DNA of 42,951 nt from Candidatus Nealsonbacteria bacterium DGGOD1a (lineage in GTDB: Bacteria; Patescibacteriota; Minisyncoccia; Minisyncoccales; UBA5738), in NCBI GenBank assembly GCA_022530585.1, contig CP092821.1:970367-1013317 (forward strand), given 5' to 3'. Below, piece by piece: positions 8,282 to 31,583 of the stretch (position 1 is the stretch's first letter; every line of letters starts with the position of its first letter). A program made the position numbers and the translations under genes. Under the pieces are notes generated by a model that did no database searches, was not told the DNA's origin, and was given only the letters and a program-made list of their open reading frames with translations.

Positions 8282-8353
8282 CGCCGGCAACTGGGCTCGA
8301 ACCAGTGACAACTTGCTTAACAGCAAGCACTCTACCGACTGAGTTATGCCAGC
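8282..8353 (-). tRNA. tRNA-Asn (anticodon GTT)
   Basis: The cloverleaf has acceptor GCTGGCA/TGCCGGC, D stem ACTC/GAGT, T stem ACTGG/CCAGT with loop TTCGAGC, and discriminator G, as expected for Asn. The anticodon is GTT. The total is 72 bases, one shorter than usual: pairing CTTGC/GCAAG leaves a six-base loop TGTTAA, and the alternative GCTTG/CAAGT leaves eight. CCA is not encoded. The 130 bases between this gene and the TGC tRNA contain no gene I can see, only an 8-bp inverted GCTTATGT/ACATAAGC pair. Confidence 0.85.
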
Positions 8354-9378: not shown

Positions 9379-9406
9379 ATGCGGGCGAATAATCATTCGC
9401 CCCTAC
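9379..9406. repeat. REP-like palindrome, family A copy 1
   Basis: GGGCGAAT and ATTCGCCC form a perfect 8-bp stem with a four-base loop, flanked by ATGC and CTAC. The 28-base unit is identical to 31293-31320 inside elp3. It overlaps the RAYT stop codon, which is the TAG formed by the terminal CTA. Confidence 0.85.
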
Positions 9407-9924
9407 GGGATACGGGAATACAATTCGTCAATTTCCCAATTTAACGGGTTATTGATGATATATTCACGCACGCGATCCAAATCATCGTCATTGCGAATAA
9501 TATGTTCATAATAATTCCTTTGCCAAATTGGTTTTCCCAACAATTTGGTAACGCCAATTTTATATCCTCTGATTATCGCCCCCACGGTTTTCGATGTCCC
9601 CGCATTTTGCATTTGTAGGGGCGAATGATTATTCGCCCGTTCCCGTTTCCATTCCCGATTTTGAATAATTATAATCCCATGGAAATGATTCGGCATCACC
9701 ACGAATTCATCCAAAATAACAAACGGATAATGTTTTGGAATTTCGTACCAACAATTATTTACGATTTCCCCCGCCTTATTCAATTCCATCTTTGCATCCG
9801 CGATGCTCCCAAACAAACATTGCCTGTTTTGCGCGCAAACGGTGACAAAATACGCCCCGTCTTGCGAATAATCATAACCCTTAACCCGAATTGTTCTCCG
9901 ATGATGAATTTCAGAATCGTACAT
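9403..9924 (-). CDS. REP-associated tyrosine transposase (RAYT, IS200/Y1-type HUH)
   Basis: A 173-residue Y1-HUH single-strand DNA transposase, of the type that moves or maintains REP palindromes as a domesticated IS200-like enzyme. The N-terminus HHRRTIRVKGYDYSQDGAYFVTVCAQNR is the family hallmark. The HUH metal motif is MPNHFHG (His80, His82), and the likely catalytic tyrosine lies in NYYEHIIRN (about 138-139). Residues 96-104 (RANNHSPLQ) are encoded by a REP palindrome, and a second copy supplies the stop codon, so the gene is decorated by its own presumed substrate. It starts two bases after the phosphoribosyltransferase stop, probably co-transcribed. Confidence 0.9.
   Translation of the reverse strand: MYDSEIHHRRTIRVKGYDYSQDGAYFVTVCAQNRQCLFGSIADAKMELNKAGEIVNNCWYEIPKHYPFVILDEFVVMPNHFHGIIIIQNREWKRERANNHSPLQMQNAGTSKTVGAIIRGYKIGVTKLLGKPIWQRNYYEHIIRNDDDLDRVREYIINNPLNWEIDELYSRIP
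9615..9639. repeat. REP-like palindrome, family A copy 2 (inside RAYT)
   Basis: This is a reverse-complement copy of the unit at 9379-9406 (GTAGGGGCGAATGATTATTC then GCCCG), about 210 bases away in opposite orientation. It is translated in frame within the RAYT gene. Confidence 0.85.
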
Positions 9925-13436: not shown

Positions 13437-13576
13437 ATTATCTTGAATTACGAAACGCTTTGTATTTGGGGTCTATCCCTATGCTGCCCGTCCCGAGTAT
13501 TCCCGAGGGATAATCGCAAGGGTTAGACCCCTTCAAAGCATTTGAATTTAATGGTTTCGCAATTCAAAAAAATTAA
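13437..13576. mobile_element. MITE-like element, copy 1 (TTGAATT-CGAAA ends)
   Basis: The terminal inverted repeats are TTGAATTACGAAAC (13443-13456) and GGTTTCGCAATTCAA (13553-13567), with AT-rich flanks that also match. The interior (13468-13531) is a nested palindrome, GGGGTCTATCCCT to AGGGTTAGACCCC, of the family B type. The same termini enclose a different interior at 34057-34226. It is non-coding and about 140 bp, between the LOG gene and mgtC. Confidence 0.7.
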
Positions 13577-13598: not shown

Positions 13599-14162
13599 TT
13601 ATGGCAATTCCAATTTTGCTTTTCTCTTTTCTTTTTCGACCAGATCAATCATCTTTTGCACCAATAAAATCGGATCTCTTTCGTAAACTATCTTCTTGAT
13701 GCCGCGGTATGTGCCTTTCACCAATTCGCGGATTTTGTCCGCCGTGCCGCCCGAACCTTCCAGCACGCCGATCGGCTTTTTGCACTCAACCGCCGTGGTA
13801 AATTCGTGCAATGTTCCCATCCGACCGCAGACGATAATTATCGCGTCCGCGGATTTGGTCATAATTATATCCCGGCCGGAATAATCCGCCCCGGTATAAA
13901 CCATCACATCGAAAACATCCATCGGCAAACGGTAACGCTTGATATGTTCCACTTCGGACCCCGCCGGCGAAAACCCGACATTGAACCCGCCTTCCTGTTT
14001 GCATCCTTGGGCGGAAAAATAAGGCACGCCGGTAGTGGCTCCCGAAACCAAAACGCAATGAGTCCGGGCGATTTCTTTGCCGATTTCTTTTGACAGCAAA
14101 ATGATATTATCGCAACAATGGCTGATTTCCGCCGCGCCCGATACCGCGATTTTGTATTGCAT
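13599..14162 (-). CDS. LOG/SLOG-family nucleotide-processing protein (TIGR00725-like)
   Basis: A 187-residue Rossmann-like protein. The start MQYKIAVSGAAE, the LVSGATTGVPYFSAQG loop, and especially GRMGTLHEFTTAVE (about 113-126, the PGGxGTxxE-type motif with R-M replacing G-G) place it in the LOG superfamily. LOG proteins cleave nucleoside monophosphates to base and ribose-5-phosphate, and the wider SLOG group binds nucleotides or nucleotide-derived signals. The substrate here cannot be told. It is the last gene before the structured RNA locus at 14244-14406, in the same orientation. Confidence 0.8.
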   Translation of the reverse strand: MQYKIAVSGAAEISHCCDNIILLSKEIGKEIARTHCVLVSGATTGVPYFSAQGCKQEGGFNVGFSPAGSEVEHIKRYRLPMDVFDVMVYTGADYSGRDIIMTKSADAIIIVCGRMGTLHEFTTAVECKKPIGVLEGSGGTADKIRELVKGTYRGIKKIVYERDPILLVQKMIDLVEKEKRKAKLELP

Positions 14163-14243
14163 ATTAAAAATTTAAAGCTAAAAGCGAAAAACTTAAAGCA
14201 TAACTAATAATCCATTCTAACAAAGAATAACGCCTTAAACAAC

Positions 14244-14406
14244 TAAAAAACACCGATGCATTCGGTGCCTTTTAGTTGAGGGGAGCGATCCCTCGCGGAA
14301 TCAGTCAAGCTATATAGTGCAATCTGGCAGAGACTGCGCGGCCCGCACTCAACCTCCTCCGCTGAAGAATCTTCTGCCTGTATTGGGTAAAAACCCTCAT
14401 CCCCTC
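14244..14406 (-). ncRNA. Predicted structured small RNA, family unassigned
   Basis: The 163-base minus-strand locus has its own consensus promoter and intrinsic terminator. The predicted RNA starts GAGGGGATGAGGG. GAGGGGA can pair with TCCCCTC just before the terminator, closing a multi-branch fold. Inside are the hairpins GGGTTTTTACCC and GAAGATTCTTC, a stem GCGGA/TCCGC enclosing AGTGC/GCACT, an apical GCAG-TCT-CTGC, and GCGA-GGGA-TCGC. Length and a closing stem recall 6S RNA, but the fold is branched rather than one long rod, so I do not assign it. A 63-codon frame crosses it (14243-14434) but starts upstream of the transcription start and looks non-coding. It lies between the SEC-C and LOG genes. 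Confidence 0.65.
14245..14267 (-). terminator. Intrinsic terminator of the 14244-14406 RNA
   Basis: The stem CACCGA/TCGGTG with a five-base loop is followed on the minus strand by six T residues. Flanking AACTAAAA/TTTTTTAGTT can extend the stem, so it may work in both directions. Confidence 0.85.
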
Positions 14407-14412
14407 GCCTTC

Positions 14413-14441
14413 TTTTTAGCCGATTAAAAACCATTTGTCAA
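14413..14441 (-). promoter_or_regulatory. Consensus promoter of the 14244-14406 RNA
   Basis: A perfect TTGACA (14441-14436) lies 17 bases from TAAAAA (14418-14413). The start is predicted at about 14406, exactly at the 5' arm of the RNA closing stem, which supports the assignment. Confidence 0.7.
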
Positions 14442-15575: not shown

Positions 15576-18260
15576 CTAATATTTACTCCATCCGTTAATT
15601 ACCTCTTGGAAATTTCGCGGTTTCTGGCTTTGCGCCTCCCAATCCTCTTGCTTGATATAAATCATTTGATATTTGGCGTTTTTCTGGTTAACATTCACAT
15701 CCGCACACCATTGTTCAAGGCGTTTTATTTTCTCGATGTCGTCCAAATCCTCGCGCCCCTTTGTTTCCACGATACAATATTCTTTTGGCGATACCTTAAC
15801 GATAAAATCGGGGTAATAATCAGAGATATTGCCATTGGCGTTTTTGTAATCAATCTTGAAGTGAACGGCAAAATAATTTTTCACATAAGAAATTATGTCC
15901 TCGCAATTTTCAAGAAAACCGGCAAATTCAAGCTCAAAGCGGCTATCGCCGACAACCTTATTGAATATGCTCTTTTGGGGCACAATGTACCCTTGATCCT
16001 TAACTACGAAAGGACGGCTTTTGCTAATCTTGATATAGTCGCGAATTTCGGCCTCGCCTTTATCAAGCACCGTCAGTTTATTGATTTCTTTCTTGAAAGT
16101 TTCAATAACGGCGCGGGTTGCTTCAATTTCAGAAAGATTGCGCAATGAATTCAAGTTTTCCAACTCAATCGGACTGTTGAATAAATAATTTTTGATAAAT
16201 TCTTTAACTTTTCCATAAAGAATATCATAGCCGCTTATAAGGCGAAGCTCTTTCATAATTATCTGCGCAAAATAGCCGATAGCGCTTTGATAATTCGGAA
16301 TAAAATTGCTGTCTAACTCTGTTTTATGGGCAATTTCACCGCTGGCAATATCGTGAAAAACGATTTCCCGCTTTTCCTCCTCGCTGAATTCTTTAATCTC
16401 GATTTTTTTATACTCAAAATTCACCGGCATTAATCCCGATAGATTTTTATATTCCCGGTAGATACGCGGCGTTAATACGGGAATCTCGATATCCAACTTT
16501 TCCATATCCTTCTTTAAGTTTTCCCGATCAATCTCAACCACTATCGGACACTTTGGCCCCGAACCTTCGCCCATTTGGCGATGTTCAAGCTCGACACCTT
16601 CGCTTTTAATCGATTCCACAAAATCCATGAAAGCATCTGTACCGACAACGCTCACAAATTCCGGTAAATCCGGGTCGCGATACATCCGGCGCAAACCACG
16701 GCCAAGCGTTTGCTCCGGCAAAATATTGCTTTTTGCCACATAAGCGCGAAGCCCGACAATTGTCGTTACATTTCGCACATCCCAGCCCTCTTTTAACATT
16801 AACACTGAAACAATCGCTTTGTGCGGGCTTTCCAAAGAATCGATCGCATTGGCAGCTTTCCGCAGCTCTTTCAACTCTTCTTCTTTCTTGCCCGTTGCGC
16901 TTTCCGAAATTTCACCATTGTCTTTCGTATGAATAACTAAAACCGCATCTTTCAAATCTTGATATGTGTTTTCAAGGTATTTGGCAACTTCATCGCAATT
17001 TTTCGTGTCATCGGTCATCACAAACAAAACTGCCTTTTTGCCAAGCTTTTTGTGTTCATCATAAACTTTCTTCCATTCTAAATATCCAAGATGAATATAA
17101 TCTTTGTATTTTTCGGTGTAATTTGATGATTTGTGTTCCTGTAATTTTGCGCGACTGGCTGAATCAGGAAGCACCGGATGCTTTACCACATTTTGATGGA
17201 TTGCCTCAACCAATGGATAATCGCTCACGGTTTGCACAAAAATCGACCCGTTGGTATGTTTCGGGGTAGCCGTAACATCAATTTGCAATGACAATGCGCC
17301 GCCTTTCATTTTTAAGCGGTTGTGGATATCGCCCACCGATTTAAACCAGCTCATCCGCGGATCGTGAATATGATGCGCTTCGTCGTTTAAAATCACCAGT
17401 CCGTCAACATTGCGAACAATATCGCCCAGATCAAGTTTAGATTCATTGGTCGCGCCCGCCGGTTTTTTACCCAAAAAATAATCAGCGGTGTTTGAATCGT
17501 CAAAGCTGGCGGCTTCGGTTGCGCCTTGATATACCCGATGAATATTTGTAAGAAATATATTGCCGGTTTTTCTAACCGTTCCGATTTCGTCCTGAATGTG
17601 AAGCGTCAACTGAAAATCATCGCGCCAATTCTGGCCGCAATAACCATTGTCTGGTAATATCGGATCCTGGAAAAAAATCTTTAATCCGTCAAAATCCGCG
17701 CGGATGCGATCAAGAACAATAATGTTCGGCGTAATGATTAAAAAATTGCGCGCCAAATCGGAATTTTGTTCGTATGTTTTGTGAAAATAACACCACGCCA
17801 GCATTAAGCTCAAAACCTTGGTTTTCCCCGCACCGGTGGCCATTTTAATCACATAGCGCGTCCAATCCTCATCAAACATTCCCGCGGAAACCGCGCCGGA
17901 ACTATCGTAGCGAATAAGATCGTATTTATCCCTCGATTTAGCAACTTCATAAAGCCAGATCACGGTTTCCACCGCTTCGCGCTGGGCAAAATAATATCGG
18001 AAAAGCGACAATTTGCCGTCAATATTTTCAACCGGATGTTCGGTTAAAAACCACCAATTAAGCAACGCCTTGCTGGTTTCGCTTGCACCGTTATAACCGC
18101 CAACGCGCCACGCCGCTACCTTCTTACGCAACTCGGCAACCAACGGCGGCAACAGCTTTCCATAATCTTTGTCGCGCAAATTTTCATCCGCCGGAAACCA
18201 CCGAATCGCCGGATCAAGAATTTCATAAGAATTTGTCGGAAAATTTTGATGTAATGCCAT
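15576..18260 (-). CDS. res: Type III restriction enzyme, Res (helicase-nuclease) subunit
   Basis: Res is the ATP-dependent translocase and nuclease of a type III restriction system and cuts unmodified DNA together with Mod. The 894 residues show Walker A ATGAGKTKVLSLM (about 141-153), a DEAH box in LNDEAHHIHDPR, VTATPKHTNGS, the motif V/VI region TLGRGLRRMYRDP, and a C-terminal PD-(D/E)XK nuclease (YPDFIVKVSPKEYCIVETKG). The start MALHQNFPTNSYE is well placed. mod lies 2.7 kb upstream rather than adjacent, separated by three other genes. A consensus promoter for a divergent ncRNA lies 38 bases upstream of this start. Confidence 0.95.
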   Translation of the reverse strand: MALHQNFPTNSYEILDPAIRWFPADENLRDKDYGKLLPPLVAELRKKVAAWRVGGYNGASETSKALLNWWFLTEHPVENIDGKLSLFRYYFAQREAVETVIWLYEVAKSRDKYDLIRYDSSGAVSAGMFDEDWTRYVIKMATGAGKTKVLSLMLAWCYFHKTYEQNSDLARNFLIITPNIIVLDRIRADFDGLKIFFQDPILPDNGYCGQNWRDDFQLTLHIQDEIGTVRKTGNIFLTNIHRVYQGATEAASFDDSNTADYFLGKKPAGATNESKLDLGDIVRNVDGLVILNDEAHHIHDPRMSWFKSVGDIHNRLKMKGGALSLQIDVTATPKHTNGSIFVQTVSDYPLVEAIHQNVVKHPVLPDSASRAKLQEHKSSNYTEKYKDYIHLGYLEWKKVYDEHKKLGKKAVLFVMTDDTKNCDEVAKYLENTYQDLKDAVLVIHTKDNGEISESATGKKEEELKELRKAANAIDSLESPHKAIVSVLMLKEGWDVRNVTTIVGLRAYVAKSNILPEQTLGRGLRRMYRDPDLPEFVSVVGTDAFMDFVESIKSEGVELEHRQMGEGSGPKCPIVVEIDRENLKKDMEKLDIEIPVLTPRIYREYKNLSGLMPVNFEYKKIEIKEFSEEEKREIVFHDIASGEIAHKTELDSNFIPNYQSAIGYFAQIIMKELRLISGYDILYGKVKEFIKNYLFNSPIELENLNSLRNLSEIEATRAVIETFKKEINKLTVLDKGEAEIRDYIKISKSRPFVVKDQGYIVPQKSIFNKVVGDSRFELEFAGFLENCEDIISYVKNYFAVHFKIDYKNANGNISDYYPDFIVKVSPKEYCIVETKGREDLDDIEKIKRLEQWCADVNVNQKNAKYQMIYIKQEDWEAQSQKPRNFQEVINGWSKY

Positions 18261-18477: not shown

Positions 18478-19944
18478 TTATTTGTTTCTTCCTTGCGCAA
18501 ATAAACTTCTTTCATCACCCATCGGCAATCTATATTTTACATTTCGCCTTGCACCCGTCCTTGGAATTATTGGCGTCAAAAGGCCCTGGCTAACCCATTT
18601 TCTAAATAATCTTGACACCTTTGAAGCATCATTGATATAGAGCAACTTTCGAGCCTCGACATTCGCGATGTATTTATTTCTATTTAAATAATCACAAACT
18701 TTATCCCATTCGCTCGGGGCTTTTTCGTTCAATAATATAACACGGACCGCATCTTGAATGCGAGGATACGTCAAGAAAATCGGCGGATACTTACTCGCCG
18801 CTTTCATTGTTTGGCGCATAGCTCGCACCCCCTCATTCTGATCAAGATTCGGCGGGTCGGGAAATTCCCGGAGATGCTTAACCAATAAATCATTTCTGTA
18901 ACCATGTGCTCTTTCTATGCCGATGTTTGATGGCGTAATATTTAAAGGCAACAATCCCGGACTCTCGATTTCAACGCGATCTTCAAAAATTTTAATCTCT
19001 ATGTCCCTTTTGGTATGATAATCGCGATGTATAATAGCATTAGTTATCGCTTCCTTAACCGCTCTTTCCGGTATCTGATAAGTGGTAACGAACCCCGATG
19101 GCACACGAATACCAGTCCGCAACAGCGTTAAAACATATTCATGGGTCTCGGTTATTTGTTTGGCAACCGGCCCGATAATGTTCTTTGGAGCCCCTATCAA
19201 ATTCAAAGTTTCTTTTATCGTTTCCAAACTGCCCTCGTACTGAAAGACTCGGACAGCGCATTTGGTATCCAATAGATCATTGGGAAACTCCGCAAATAAT
19301 AATACTGCCGCGCGCGTCGGATATAGCAAATCATCATTTCCTCTTCGAGCCAAGCCGGTTTTCTCTAAAACTATTTCAATGGGATCATCCGTTATCTCCC
19401 GCTTTTTGCGCCAAGAATCGTAAAACAGCGATTTTAAAAGCTTGAAATCAACCGAAACCAATTCTTTATCCGCCCGTTCAAATCCTTTAACATAGGCGAA
19501 ATGAACCAATTCCTGCGGTGCAAGCAGTTTGTTGCCTTTTTCCAAACGAATGTATGCGTGGCCTTCGAATGACCTGAAACCATCCCCAACCTTGGGGATA
19601 AACAAAAGCCCAATTCTTGCATTTTTATTCGGAACTTCTATAAGTTTAGGCGGCCAGATACTGGAAATCGGCGGTGAAATTTTCCTTAATGACCTCCCTA
19701 TCTCATCGTAAAGCTCAAGATTCTCTTCAATGCCGAAAATCCTATCCAATCCCTTCCGTTTGGTTTTCTGCGGATCATCAACGCCCAAGATTATCGTACC
19801 GCCATCGGTATTCGCCATCGCAACGATGGATTCTAATGTTTTATCGACACAATCATTTCTGCTTGCGCCAAGCCGTTTGAATTCCAGCGTTCGCGTTTCC
19901 GAAGGAATATTCAAGATATTTTCTATTAATTCTTTTTTTTCCAT
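18478..19944 (-). CDS. AlbA_2/GHKL ATP-binding transcriptional regulator-like protein
   Basis: A 488-residue protein of the RecG-like/AlbA_2 (Schlafen-AlbA) type. The N-terminal AlbA_2 domain shows ETRTLEFKRL and SIVAMANTDGGTIILGVDD (about residues 17-57). The middle GHKL-like ATPase has PERAVKEAITNAIIHRDYH (about 283-301) and EDRVEIESPGLLP. The C-terminal part looks like a winged helix (ASKVSRLFRKWVSQGLLTP). Such proteins are common beside restriction systems and other defence genes, where their role is not settled. The gene lies between mod and res. Its leader is a duplicate of the AbrB-NYN leader at 25276-25329, including iterons and the first antitoxin codons, so it may answer to the same repressor. 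The ATG at 19944 is kept. Confidence 0.85.
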   Translation of the reverse strand: MEKKELIENILNIPSETRTLEFKRLGASRNDCVDKTLESIVAMANTDGGTIILGVDDPQKTKRKGLDRIFGIEENLELYDEIGRSLRKISPPISSIWPPKLIEVPNKNARIGLLFIPKVGDGFRSFEGHAYIRLEKGNKLLAPQELVHFAYVKGFERADKELVSVDFKLLKSLFYDSWRKKREITDDPIEIVLEKTGLARRGNDDLLYPTRAAVLLFAEFPNDLLDTKCAVRVFQYEGSLETIKETLNLIGAPKNIIGPVAKQITETHEYVLTLLRTGIRVPSGFVTTYQIPERAVKEAITNAIIHRDYHTKRDIEIKIFEDRVEIESPGLLPLNITPSNIGIERAHGYRNDLLVKHLREFPDPPNLDQNEGVRAMRQTMKAASKYPPIFLTYPRIQDAVRVILLNEKAPSEWDKVCDYLNRNKYIANVEARKLLYINDASKVSRLFRKWVSQGLLTPIIPRTGARRNVKYRLPMGDERSLFAQGRNK

Positions 19945-29864: not shown

Positions 29865-31583
29865 ATGGAAAACTCAATGGCAAAAATCATCGCCGAAAAG
29901 CTTGTCGAAGCCGATCCGCAAACCAAAACGCAACTGGAAGCGTTAAAGCGCGAGATTGCCAAGGAATTAAAAATTCCCTGCCCAAACAACATTTGGCTCC
30001 TATCCGCGCTTTCAGAGGGTCTAACCCTCTGTATCAGAGGGTTAGACCATCTGAAAATCAACCGCTTGAGAAATTTGTTGCGGGTGAGGCCGGTGCGATC
30101 GCTTTCGGGGATTGTTAATGTTTCGGTTTTGACAAAACCCTATCCTTGCCCGGGCAGCTGCCTTTACTGCCCCAACGAGCCGGGTTTTCCCAAAAGCTAT
30201 CTTTCCGGAGAGCCGGCGGCCGAGCGCGCCAAACTTTTAAAGTTCAATCCCCATACCCAAGTGAAAAAACGGCTGGAAAATCTGGCGGCCGAAGGACACA
30301 GCATAGATAAAATCGAATTGCGGGTCATTGGCGGCACCTGGAGCTTTTATCCCAAAAACTATCAAGATAAATTCGTCGCCTCTTGTTTTGCCGCCTGCAA
30401 TGCTTTGAGCATTGCGAAAAATCCGCAATGCTCAAAGCATTGCGAAAGAACAAAATCATTGGAACGCGAGCAAAAGAAAAACGAAACCGCCAAATGCCGG
30501 ATCGTGGGAATTTCGGTGGAAACCCGGCCGGATTATATCAACGAGAAAGAAATCATTCAATTAAGAAAACTGGGGGTAACGCGCGTGGAACTGGGCATCC
30601 AAAGCATCTATGACGATGTGCTGGAACTCAACAATCGCGGCCATAAAATCGACGCGGCCGTCCGGGCGACAAAATTATTAAAAAACGCCGGCTTTAAAAT
30701 TTCCTACCAAATAATGCTCAATCTCTATGGCTCGTCGCCGGCGCGCGATCTGGCAATGGCAAAAGAATTATTCGCCAACCCGGATTTCTGCCCCGACCTG
30801 CTGAAAATTTATCCGTGCGCCGTCCTGCCGGAAGCGCCGCTTTATGAAATTTATCAACAAGGAAAATACCGGCCGTATTCCGACAAAAAATTGATTGATG
30901 TGGTCAAAGAAATCAAAAAGATCACGCCGCCGTGGGTGCGTATTGAACGAATCATCCGCGACATCCCCTCTCCGCGCATCACCGCCGGCGCCAAAGGCAT
31001 TTCCAATCTCCGCCAGATCATCGCCGCCGATATGGAAAAAGAAAAATGGCGATGCCGGTGCATCCGGTGCCGCGAGATTAAAGGAGAATATGACCCAAAA
31101 GAAAAAATTGCATTGGTTCGGCGCGATTATCAGGCGTCAAACGGCACGGAAATTTTTTTAAGTTTTGAGAATGAATCAAAAACAAAATTATTCAGCTTGT
31201 TGCGGTTAAGAATAACCAACGATGGTTCAAATCTAATCACGGGCAACACGGGCGAAAACATGGTTTCGCCCCTACGAATCGAAAACGATACAATGCGGGC
31301 GAATAATCATTCGCCCCTACAAAATACGGTGGCAATCGTAAGGGAAATTCACACCTATGGCCTGCAAACCGCGATTGACCAAAAATCAATTTCCGCCCAA
31401 CACACCGGCTTGGGGAAAAAATTGATCAAAGAGGCGGAAAAAATCGTGCGCGAAGAATCCGGCGCAAAAAAAATTGCCGCCATTTCCGGCATCGGCGCCC
31501 GCGCCTACTGGCGCAAAAACGGGTATAAATTAAAAAATACTTATATGACAAAAAAAATGCGCGAACGAATTCGCGCCTGCTAG
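29865..31583 (+). CDS. elp3: Elp3-family tRNA uridine(34) carboxymethyl-modifying enzyme
   Basis: Elp3 combines a radical SAM domain with a GNAT-like domain to build cm5U at the tRNA wobble position; single-subunit versions occur in archaea and some bacteria. The 572 residues include the cluster motif KPYPCPGSCLYCPNE (Cys95, Cys99, Cys102), GISVETRPDYI, VTRVELGIQSIYDDVL, KIYPCAVLPEAPLYE and the Cys-rich WRCRCIRCREI. The C-terminal acetyltransferase part has QHTGLGKKLIKEAEKIV and ISGIGARAYWRKNGY. Four palindromic repeats lie inside the frame and are translated (residues about 49-64, 178-193, 460-470 and 476-485), all in variable linkers. This is a strong identification; whether the repeat-bearing protein is fully active is unknown. 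Confidence 0.93.
   Translation: MENSMAKIIAEKLVEADPQTKTQLEALKREIAKELKIPCPNNIWLLSALSEGLTLCIRGLDHLKINRLRNLLRVRPVRSLSGIVNVSVLTKPYPCPGSCLYCPNEPGFPKSYLSGEPAAERAKLLKFNPHTQVKKRLENLAAEGHSIDKIELRVIGGTWSFYPKNYQDKFVASCFAACNALSIAKNPQCSKHCERTKSLEREQKKNETAKCRIVGISVETRPDYINEKEIIQLRKLGVTRVELGIQSIYDDVLELNNRGHKIDAAVRATKLLKNAGFKISYQIMLNLYGSSPARDLAMAKELFANPDFCPDLLKIYPCAVLPEAPLYEIYQQGKYRPYSDKKLIDVVKEIKKITPPWVRIERIIRDIPSPRITAGAKGISNLRQIIAADMEKEKWRCRCIRCREIKGEYDPKEKIALVRRDYQASNGTEIFLSFENESKTKLFSLLRLRITNDGSNLITGNTGENMVSPLRIENDTMRANNHSPLQNTVAIVREIHTYGLQTAIDQKSISAQHTGLGKKLIKEAEKIVREESGAKKIAAISGIGARAYWRKNGYKLKNTYMTKKMRERIRAC
30010..30056. repeat. Family B palindrome inside elp3
   Basis: TTTCAGA, GGTCTAACCCTCTG and their complements surround a four-base loop TATC. 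It shares the GGGTCTAACCC core with 13468-13531, 32810-32838 and 41546-41678. It is translated as SALSEGLTLCIRGLDHLK, in the linker before LLRVRPVRSLSG. Confidence 0.85.
30397..30443. repeat. 20-bp perfect inverted repeat inside elp3
   Basis: The arms 30397-30416 and 30424-30443 are exact reverse complements with a seven-base loop. Each arm is itself nearly palindromic (GCAATGC..GCATTGC). It is translated as NALSIAKNPQCSKHCE, a variable linker in the family. Confidence 0.9.
31246..31320. repeat. Two direct REP-like palindromes inside elp3, family A copies 5 and 6
   Basis: 31246-31275 matches the copy at 11744-11773, and 31293-31320 is identical to 9379-9406 at the RAYT stop. Both have the same orientation and are translated as NTGENMVSPL and MRANNHSPLQ. 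They sit in the linker just before the acetyltransferase-like tail. Confidence 0.9.

Follow-up and report, generated by a model that had tools for sequence, protein, structure and literature searches.

What does a structured RNA of no recognised family do in the genome of Candidatus Nealsonbacteria bacterium DGGOD1a, and in what form does it work? The question is raised by a 42,951-nt stretch of this organism's complete 1.16-Mb genome (contig CP092821.1, positions 970,367 to 1,013,317; the window, numbered here from its first letter), where the minus strand carries, at 14278-14406, the ~129-nt core of an RNA gene. The original prediction had described a standalone structured RNA gene of a family it did not recognise, and this description is supported: Rfam gave no match, and compensatory changes were observed at every modelled pair. 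We propose that the product is a stand-alone, trans-acting RNA that very likely works as a homodimer, and we regard it as probable that it represents a Parcubacteria-group family of obligate homodimers, in which two palindromic duplexes form within one internal loop, possibly together with a domain-swapped pseudoknot.

The evidence centres on the internal loop between helices P4 and P5, below the apical hairpin of the fold, where both strands are each self-complementary. On the 5' side lies palindrome 1, GCGGGCCGC (14338-14346, minus strand), which is self-complementary around a central G.G and has a self-duplex energy of -16.4 kcal/mol; on the 3' side lies palindrome 2, CUAUAUAG (14310-14317, minus strand), whose counterpart in the relative G003 is CUAUGUAG, with a wobble. 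Across homologs, site 1 held a perfect palindrome 8 nt or longer in 49 of 76 sequences, compared to 3.9 expected when the same stretch was shuffled (maximum 10 in 500 shuffles), and the excess persisted among sequences less than 80% identical (41/63 vs 3.3 expected). Site 2, tested relative to the pseudoknot strand, held self-complementary 8-mers in 43/76 with G.U pairs allowed (8.5 expected). None of the 76 homologs lacked both palindromes when G.U was allowed, and control stretches of the same RNAs showed no palindrome excess. One row of the 79-row alignment (L070:1588-1716), probably a false match, was excluded from these tests. Among seven held-out homologs (L089, L129, L130, and L151-L154), all had at least one palindrome of at least 6 nt.

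The palindromes keep their symmetry while changing their sequence. At site 1 alone, no fewer than 19 different six-base cores were counted, and close relatives that are 80-83% identical elsewhere switch from one palindrome to another; L050 and L067 (83%), for instance, differ by paired substitutions. Strong palindromes in homologs include GCAGCUGC and GGAUAUCC. In an alignment made blind to palindromes, using one fixed column with no best placing per sequence, symmetry was higher at column 92 than anywhere else in the alignment, its offsets 1-4 pairing in 84, 84, 78, and 63% of sequences vs 35, 64, 27, and 43% with shuffled partners. Column 68, picked automatically as a second symmetric centre, was rejected as an artefact of conserved columns. 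Adjacent bases of a single chain cannot pair together, and zero-loop covariation of this kind can therefore arise only from pairing between two molecules; from it, we strongly infer dimerisation. Adjacent-base covariation, here as in homo-oligomeric structured RNAs of the OLE, ROOL, and GOLLD type, has a precedent as evidence: Kretsch et al. took it (in a few variants) to indicate intermolecular pairs in OLE and GOLLD, beside cryo-EM structures (PMC12286853).

The fold in which these sites are embedded is itself well supported by covariation. All 34 modelled pairs showed at least one two-sided change in the 79-row alignment, with 86.8% of paired cells able to pair vs 67.9% with shuffled partners, and a covariation score of 0.58 vs 0.24 (shuffled) and at most 0.13 (partners slid); this alignment was fitted to the model and is biased towards it, but the effect is nonetheless large, and an independently aligned set gave the same helices by eye. 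On the minus strand, P1 pairs GAGGGG (14401-14406) with CCCCTC (14278-14283), with 99.2% of cells paired and compensatory changes at 5/5 modelled pairs. P2 is a small hairpin, GGGUUUUUACCC (14385-14396; 99.7%, 4/4). The long arm begins with P3a (14367-14371 with 14287-14291; 91.6%, 5/5) and continues through P3b (14357-14362 with 14295-14300) and P4 (5' strand GGUUGAG, 14348-14354 with 14303-14309), which were scored together as helix 4 of the alignment; a purine-rich internal loop lies directly 5' of the P4 5' strand. The arm is capped by the apical hairpin P5, GCAGUCU-CUGCC-AGAUUGC (14319-14337, pairing 14331-14337 with 14319-14325; 82.8%, 7/7). The internal stems of the original prediction, which had called for a search for compensatory changes in relatives, are thus borne out, whereas the pseudoknot and the two palindromes had been missed. 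A GGAGG motif considered as a Shine-Dalgarno mimic was dropped, being lost in many members of one family.

The predicted pseudoknot, shown by covariation, joins the strand after P2 (GGCAG, 14374-14378) to the P5 loop (CUGCC, 14326-14330), both on the minus strand. Alternating pairs in homologs include GGACA/UGUCC, GGCC/GGCC, GGGC/GCCC, and GGAUAA/UUAUCC, with GGCAA/UUGCC and GGGCAA/UUGCCC in held-out members. Its two strands are separated by the P3-P4 arm, and it may form within one chain or between two.

We next consider the gene that encodes this RNA. On the minus strand, a -35 box TTGACA (14436-14441) is followed, after a spacer of 17 bases, by a -10 box TAAAAA (14413-14418), as originally predicted, and homologs carry TAGAAT, TAAAAT, or TTAAAAT at the equivalent position. 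A promoter with at least 10 of 12 consensus matches was conserved in 69 of 77 homolog loci, compared to ~1.0 expected from shuffles; a simple consensus scan of the window did not list the promoter because TAAAAA breaks the scan's rule of a final T. The 5' end of the core, at ~14406, was placed from the promoter and the conserved GAGGGG, and the predicted start at GAGGGGA does pair, in the covarying P1, with a TCCCCTC ending at 14278. The strong terminator that had been claimed lies at 14241-14275 (minus strand, from sequence and fold); being palindromic, it was listed by the scan on just the plus strand. A hairpin and U-tract follow the core in nearly all homologs. With the terminator, the fold was far more stable than shuffled sequence (z = -6.2, 0/200 shuffles equally stable), and without it z was -3.2. 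From these sequence features, we infer transcription from a sigma-70-type promoter of the RNA's own, ending at its own terminator.

The boundaries of the core follow from homologs found by BLAST and covariance models, and from covariation. BLAST recovered the RNA, with 74-87% identity, from three of the four further family members whose genomes were compared, and the resulting four-sequence alignment already held eight covarying pairs. A covariance model built stepwise on 4, 6, and then 79 sequences detected the RNA, always as a single copy, in 84 of the order's 247 genomes, a count in which the negatives, coming from a fast-filter search, may include false ones. When 38 loci were searched with filters off, ~30 of which precede a gene for an EF-Tu-domain-2-like (EF-Tu-D2-like) protein in genomes without an earlier match, two more copies were added (L129 and L130). 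Outside the order, G075 was the only genome with the RNA among 383 sampled from the class, and a covariance search of a 286-genome phylum sample yielded no additional genome. The single member outside the order, L089, has two compared relatives without the RNA, possibly reflecting horizontal transfer, loss in those relatives, or a misplaced genome. Overall, the RNA occurs in ~85 species-level genomes of a lineage of ultra-small bacteria, and a pattern search that reports organism names matched Candidatus Nealsonbacteria, Staskawiczbacteria, and other Parcubacteria-group/Paceibacterota genomes. Neither a BLAST search of the window's RNA against phages nor a pattern scan of viral contigs gave a match, and there is therefore no sign of a phage origin.

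Taken together, these features suggest the following course of events. The RNA would be transcribed from its own promoter and ended at its own terminator, and would fold into P1, the small hairpin P2, the long arm P3-P4, and the apical hairpin P5, plus the pseudoknot. Two copies would then bind at the P4/P5 internal loop via two intermolecular duplexes, yielding a symmetric homodimer of the RNA, which would act in trans, most likely as a scaffold or within an RNA-protein particle. That the dimer is a scaffold or ribonucleoprotein core is a working proposal, and for any specific process our confidence falls far below that for the homodimer itself. Several points weigh against this account: the window's palindrome 1 is imperfect, with an odd centre and a G.G mismatch; some family members have a weak palindrome 2; the scaffold role was assumed by default; and in most genomes the same block of genes follows the RNA on the same strand, as would also be expected of a cis element.

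Could the palindromes instead be sites on DNA for dimeric proteins or enzymes, and not RNA pairing at all? Exact palindromes are indeed found in many protein sites on DNA, but what is conserved here is the symmetry and not the sequence, and the palindromes are placed exactly in the P4/P5 internal loop. Moreover, a G.U wobble occurs inside the site-2 palindrome in 30/76 homologs, which breaks DNA symmetry and leaves RNA pairing intact, therefore indicating RNA rather than DNA pairing; we give the DNA-site explanation next to no weight. It is also very improbable that the RNA is a strongly diverged 6S RNA, signal recognition particle (SRP) RNA, or other classical RNA below the reach of Rfam. The case for such a relationship is that these slots look empty, as the 6S and small-SRP models match nothing else in the genome or its relatives. 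Specifically, the 6S model (RF00013) matched in none of 19 genomes (own and relatives) at E ≤ 1, with nothing at the locus, and the bacterial small SRP model (RF00169) matched in none of 10 (own genome and nine relatives) at the same threshold, though they were positive in 6/14 and 13/14 control genomes, respectively. In these ten genomes, the SRP RNA has either diverged strongly or belongs to a different type. On the other side, neither model matches our RNA at an E of 1, in keeping with the mismatch to 6S and SRP claimed at the outset; neither the pseudoknot nor the palindromes belong to 6S or SRP; and roughly two thirds of the order lack the RNA, which would not be expected of SRP RNA. The Rfam covariance search that had been suggested gave the same picture even at permissive E-values: with Rfam 15 at the gathering threshold, only tRNAs exceeded it in the window, none on the RNA; at E ≤ 10, the RNA locus returned only noise; and at E ≤ 2, no family matched the RNA at 20 homologous loci. 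The OLE family likewise had no Rfam model match to the RNA, its locus, or those 20 loci. A literature search among open-licence papers found no description of the RNA, and we consider it a new, previously uncatalogued family.

A more serious competitor, though still unlikely, is that the RNA is a riboswitch-like attenuator leader acting in cis, controlling the downstream gene at the terminator. The layout has the right parts (a promoter, a pseudoknotted domain, and a terminator, with a gene following in the same orientation), and in most of 78 loci the next gene is either LOG or one encoding an EF-Tu-D2-like protein of ~88 amino acids; this conserved gene block keeps a cis role as a minority reading. 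In the window, the neighbour outside the RNA gene is a SLOG/LOG-like protein (13599-14162, minus strand; Pfam LDcluster4, E 5e-32). It is, however, preceded by a separate promoter with an extended -10, TGTTAGAAT (14214-14222, minus strand), and the corresponding TGnTAnnAT pattern stands between terminator and gene, 20-130 nt after the core, in 55/77 loci vs 6.8 expected. Because the downstream genes mostly have a promoter of their own, the RNA appears to be a separate unit, and an attenuator or riboswitch is unlikely. The next gene also varies: G003 has a BrnT/BrnA pair in this place, whereas L074 and L083 have a 327-aa gene unrelated to the others; inspection by eye of homolog loci found no core strand able to pair with the terminator as an anti-terminator; and a cis leader would leave the covarying palindromes unexplained. 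The EF-Tu-D2-like protein was found in 207/247 genomes of the order, including most of those without the RNA, and the same search did not find it in the window's own genome, such that it is not an obligate or dedicated partner.

Two further observations concern these neighbouring genes. In G003, the closest relative, a BrnT toxin/CopG-type antitoxin pair (L002:484-1060) sits between the RNA gene and LOG. Separately, in 45/64 loci (L009, L016, L021, L050, L067, and others), compared to 0.6 expected by shuffling, the 5' leader of the ~88-aa EF-Tu-D2-like gene carries a conserved AAAGGUC or AAAGGCC motif, usually 30-40 nt upstream of the start codon. The motif is similar to AAAGGAC, a pseudoknot strand of the RNA, and may act in regulation or bind a protein. 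Elsewhere in the window, this CPR genome may hold REP-like elements and a RAYT-type transposase: inverted repeats of the GGGTCTA...TAGACCC type lie between genes (13469-13530 and 30017-30053), and a single-domain Y1/IS200-like transposase is present at 9403-9924. Close to the SEC-C gene, a type III restriction (Res) subunit adjoins a Schlafen/AlbA_2-ATPase protein (15576-18260 and 18478-19944), and this pair may mark a defence island. Finally, ARAGORN assigned no amino acid to the tRNA gene at 8282-8353 and read its anticodon as four bases (gtta), probably owing to an odd anticodon loop.

Returning to the homodimer, its interest lies in a small (~130 nt), single-copy RNA, spread across many genera, whose palindromes switch yet remain self-complementary, which makes RNA quaternary structure testable by cheap in vitro work. 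If the proposal is true, it would be a case of RNA quaternary structure documented by evolution alone. Zero-loop palindromic covariation, a signal that standard secondary-structure programs are unable to show, is worth looking for in other RNA families too. According to a review, no more than a handful of functional RNA homodimers are known in nature (PMC7357161), and structures of complexes made of RNA alone date from 2025 (PMC12286853); the present RNA would belong to a known kind, that of self-assembling ornate RNAs, and would add a small new case to the very few known RNA-RNA dimers.

The closest parallels are OLE, which forms a dimer, and ROOL and GOLLD, which form cages. Like the present RNA, these are ornate bacterial non-coding RNAs with covariation that includes intermolecular symmetric pairs (PMC12286853), and the palindromes of OLE and GOLLD switch sequence as well (PMC12286853). 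They are, however, much larger molecules that rely on kissing loops as well as A-minor and A-A contacts, whereas the ~130-nt RNA described here carries one palindrome on each strand of a single internal loop and has no sequence or Rfam relation to them. In the hatchet ribozyme, too, a palindromic internal-loop sequence drives homodimer formation (PMC7357161), but that palindrome is 4 nt long, is not strictly conserved, and has an unclear role in vivo, in contrast to the present RNA, where symmetry over 8 nt has survived many sequence changes. Palindromes are likewise used by retroviral dimer linkage signals (PAL1/PAL2 and DIS) for RNA homodimerisation (PMC7357161), though these are unrelated elements of viral genomic leaders. 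Lastly, 6S RNA shares the stand-alone, single-copy organisation with its own promoter and terminator and a long hairpin with a closing stem; the present RNA differs in having no central open bubble, in matching no 6S model, and in carrying a pseudoknot.
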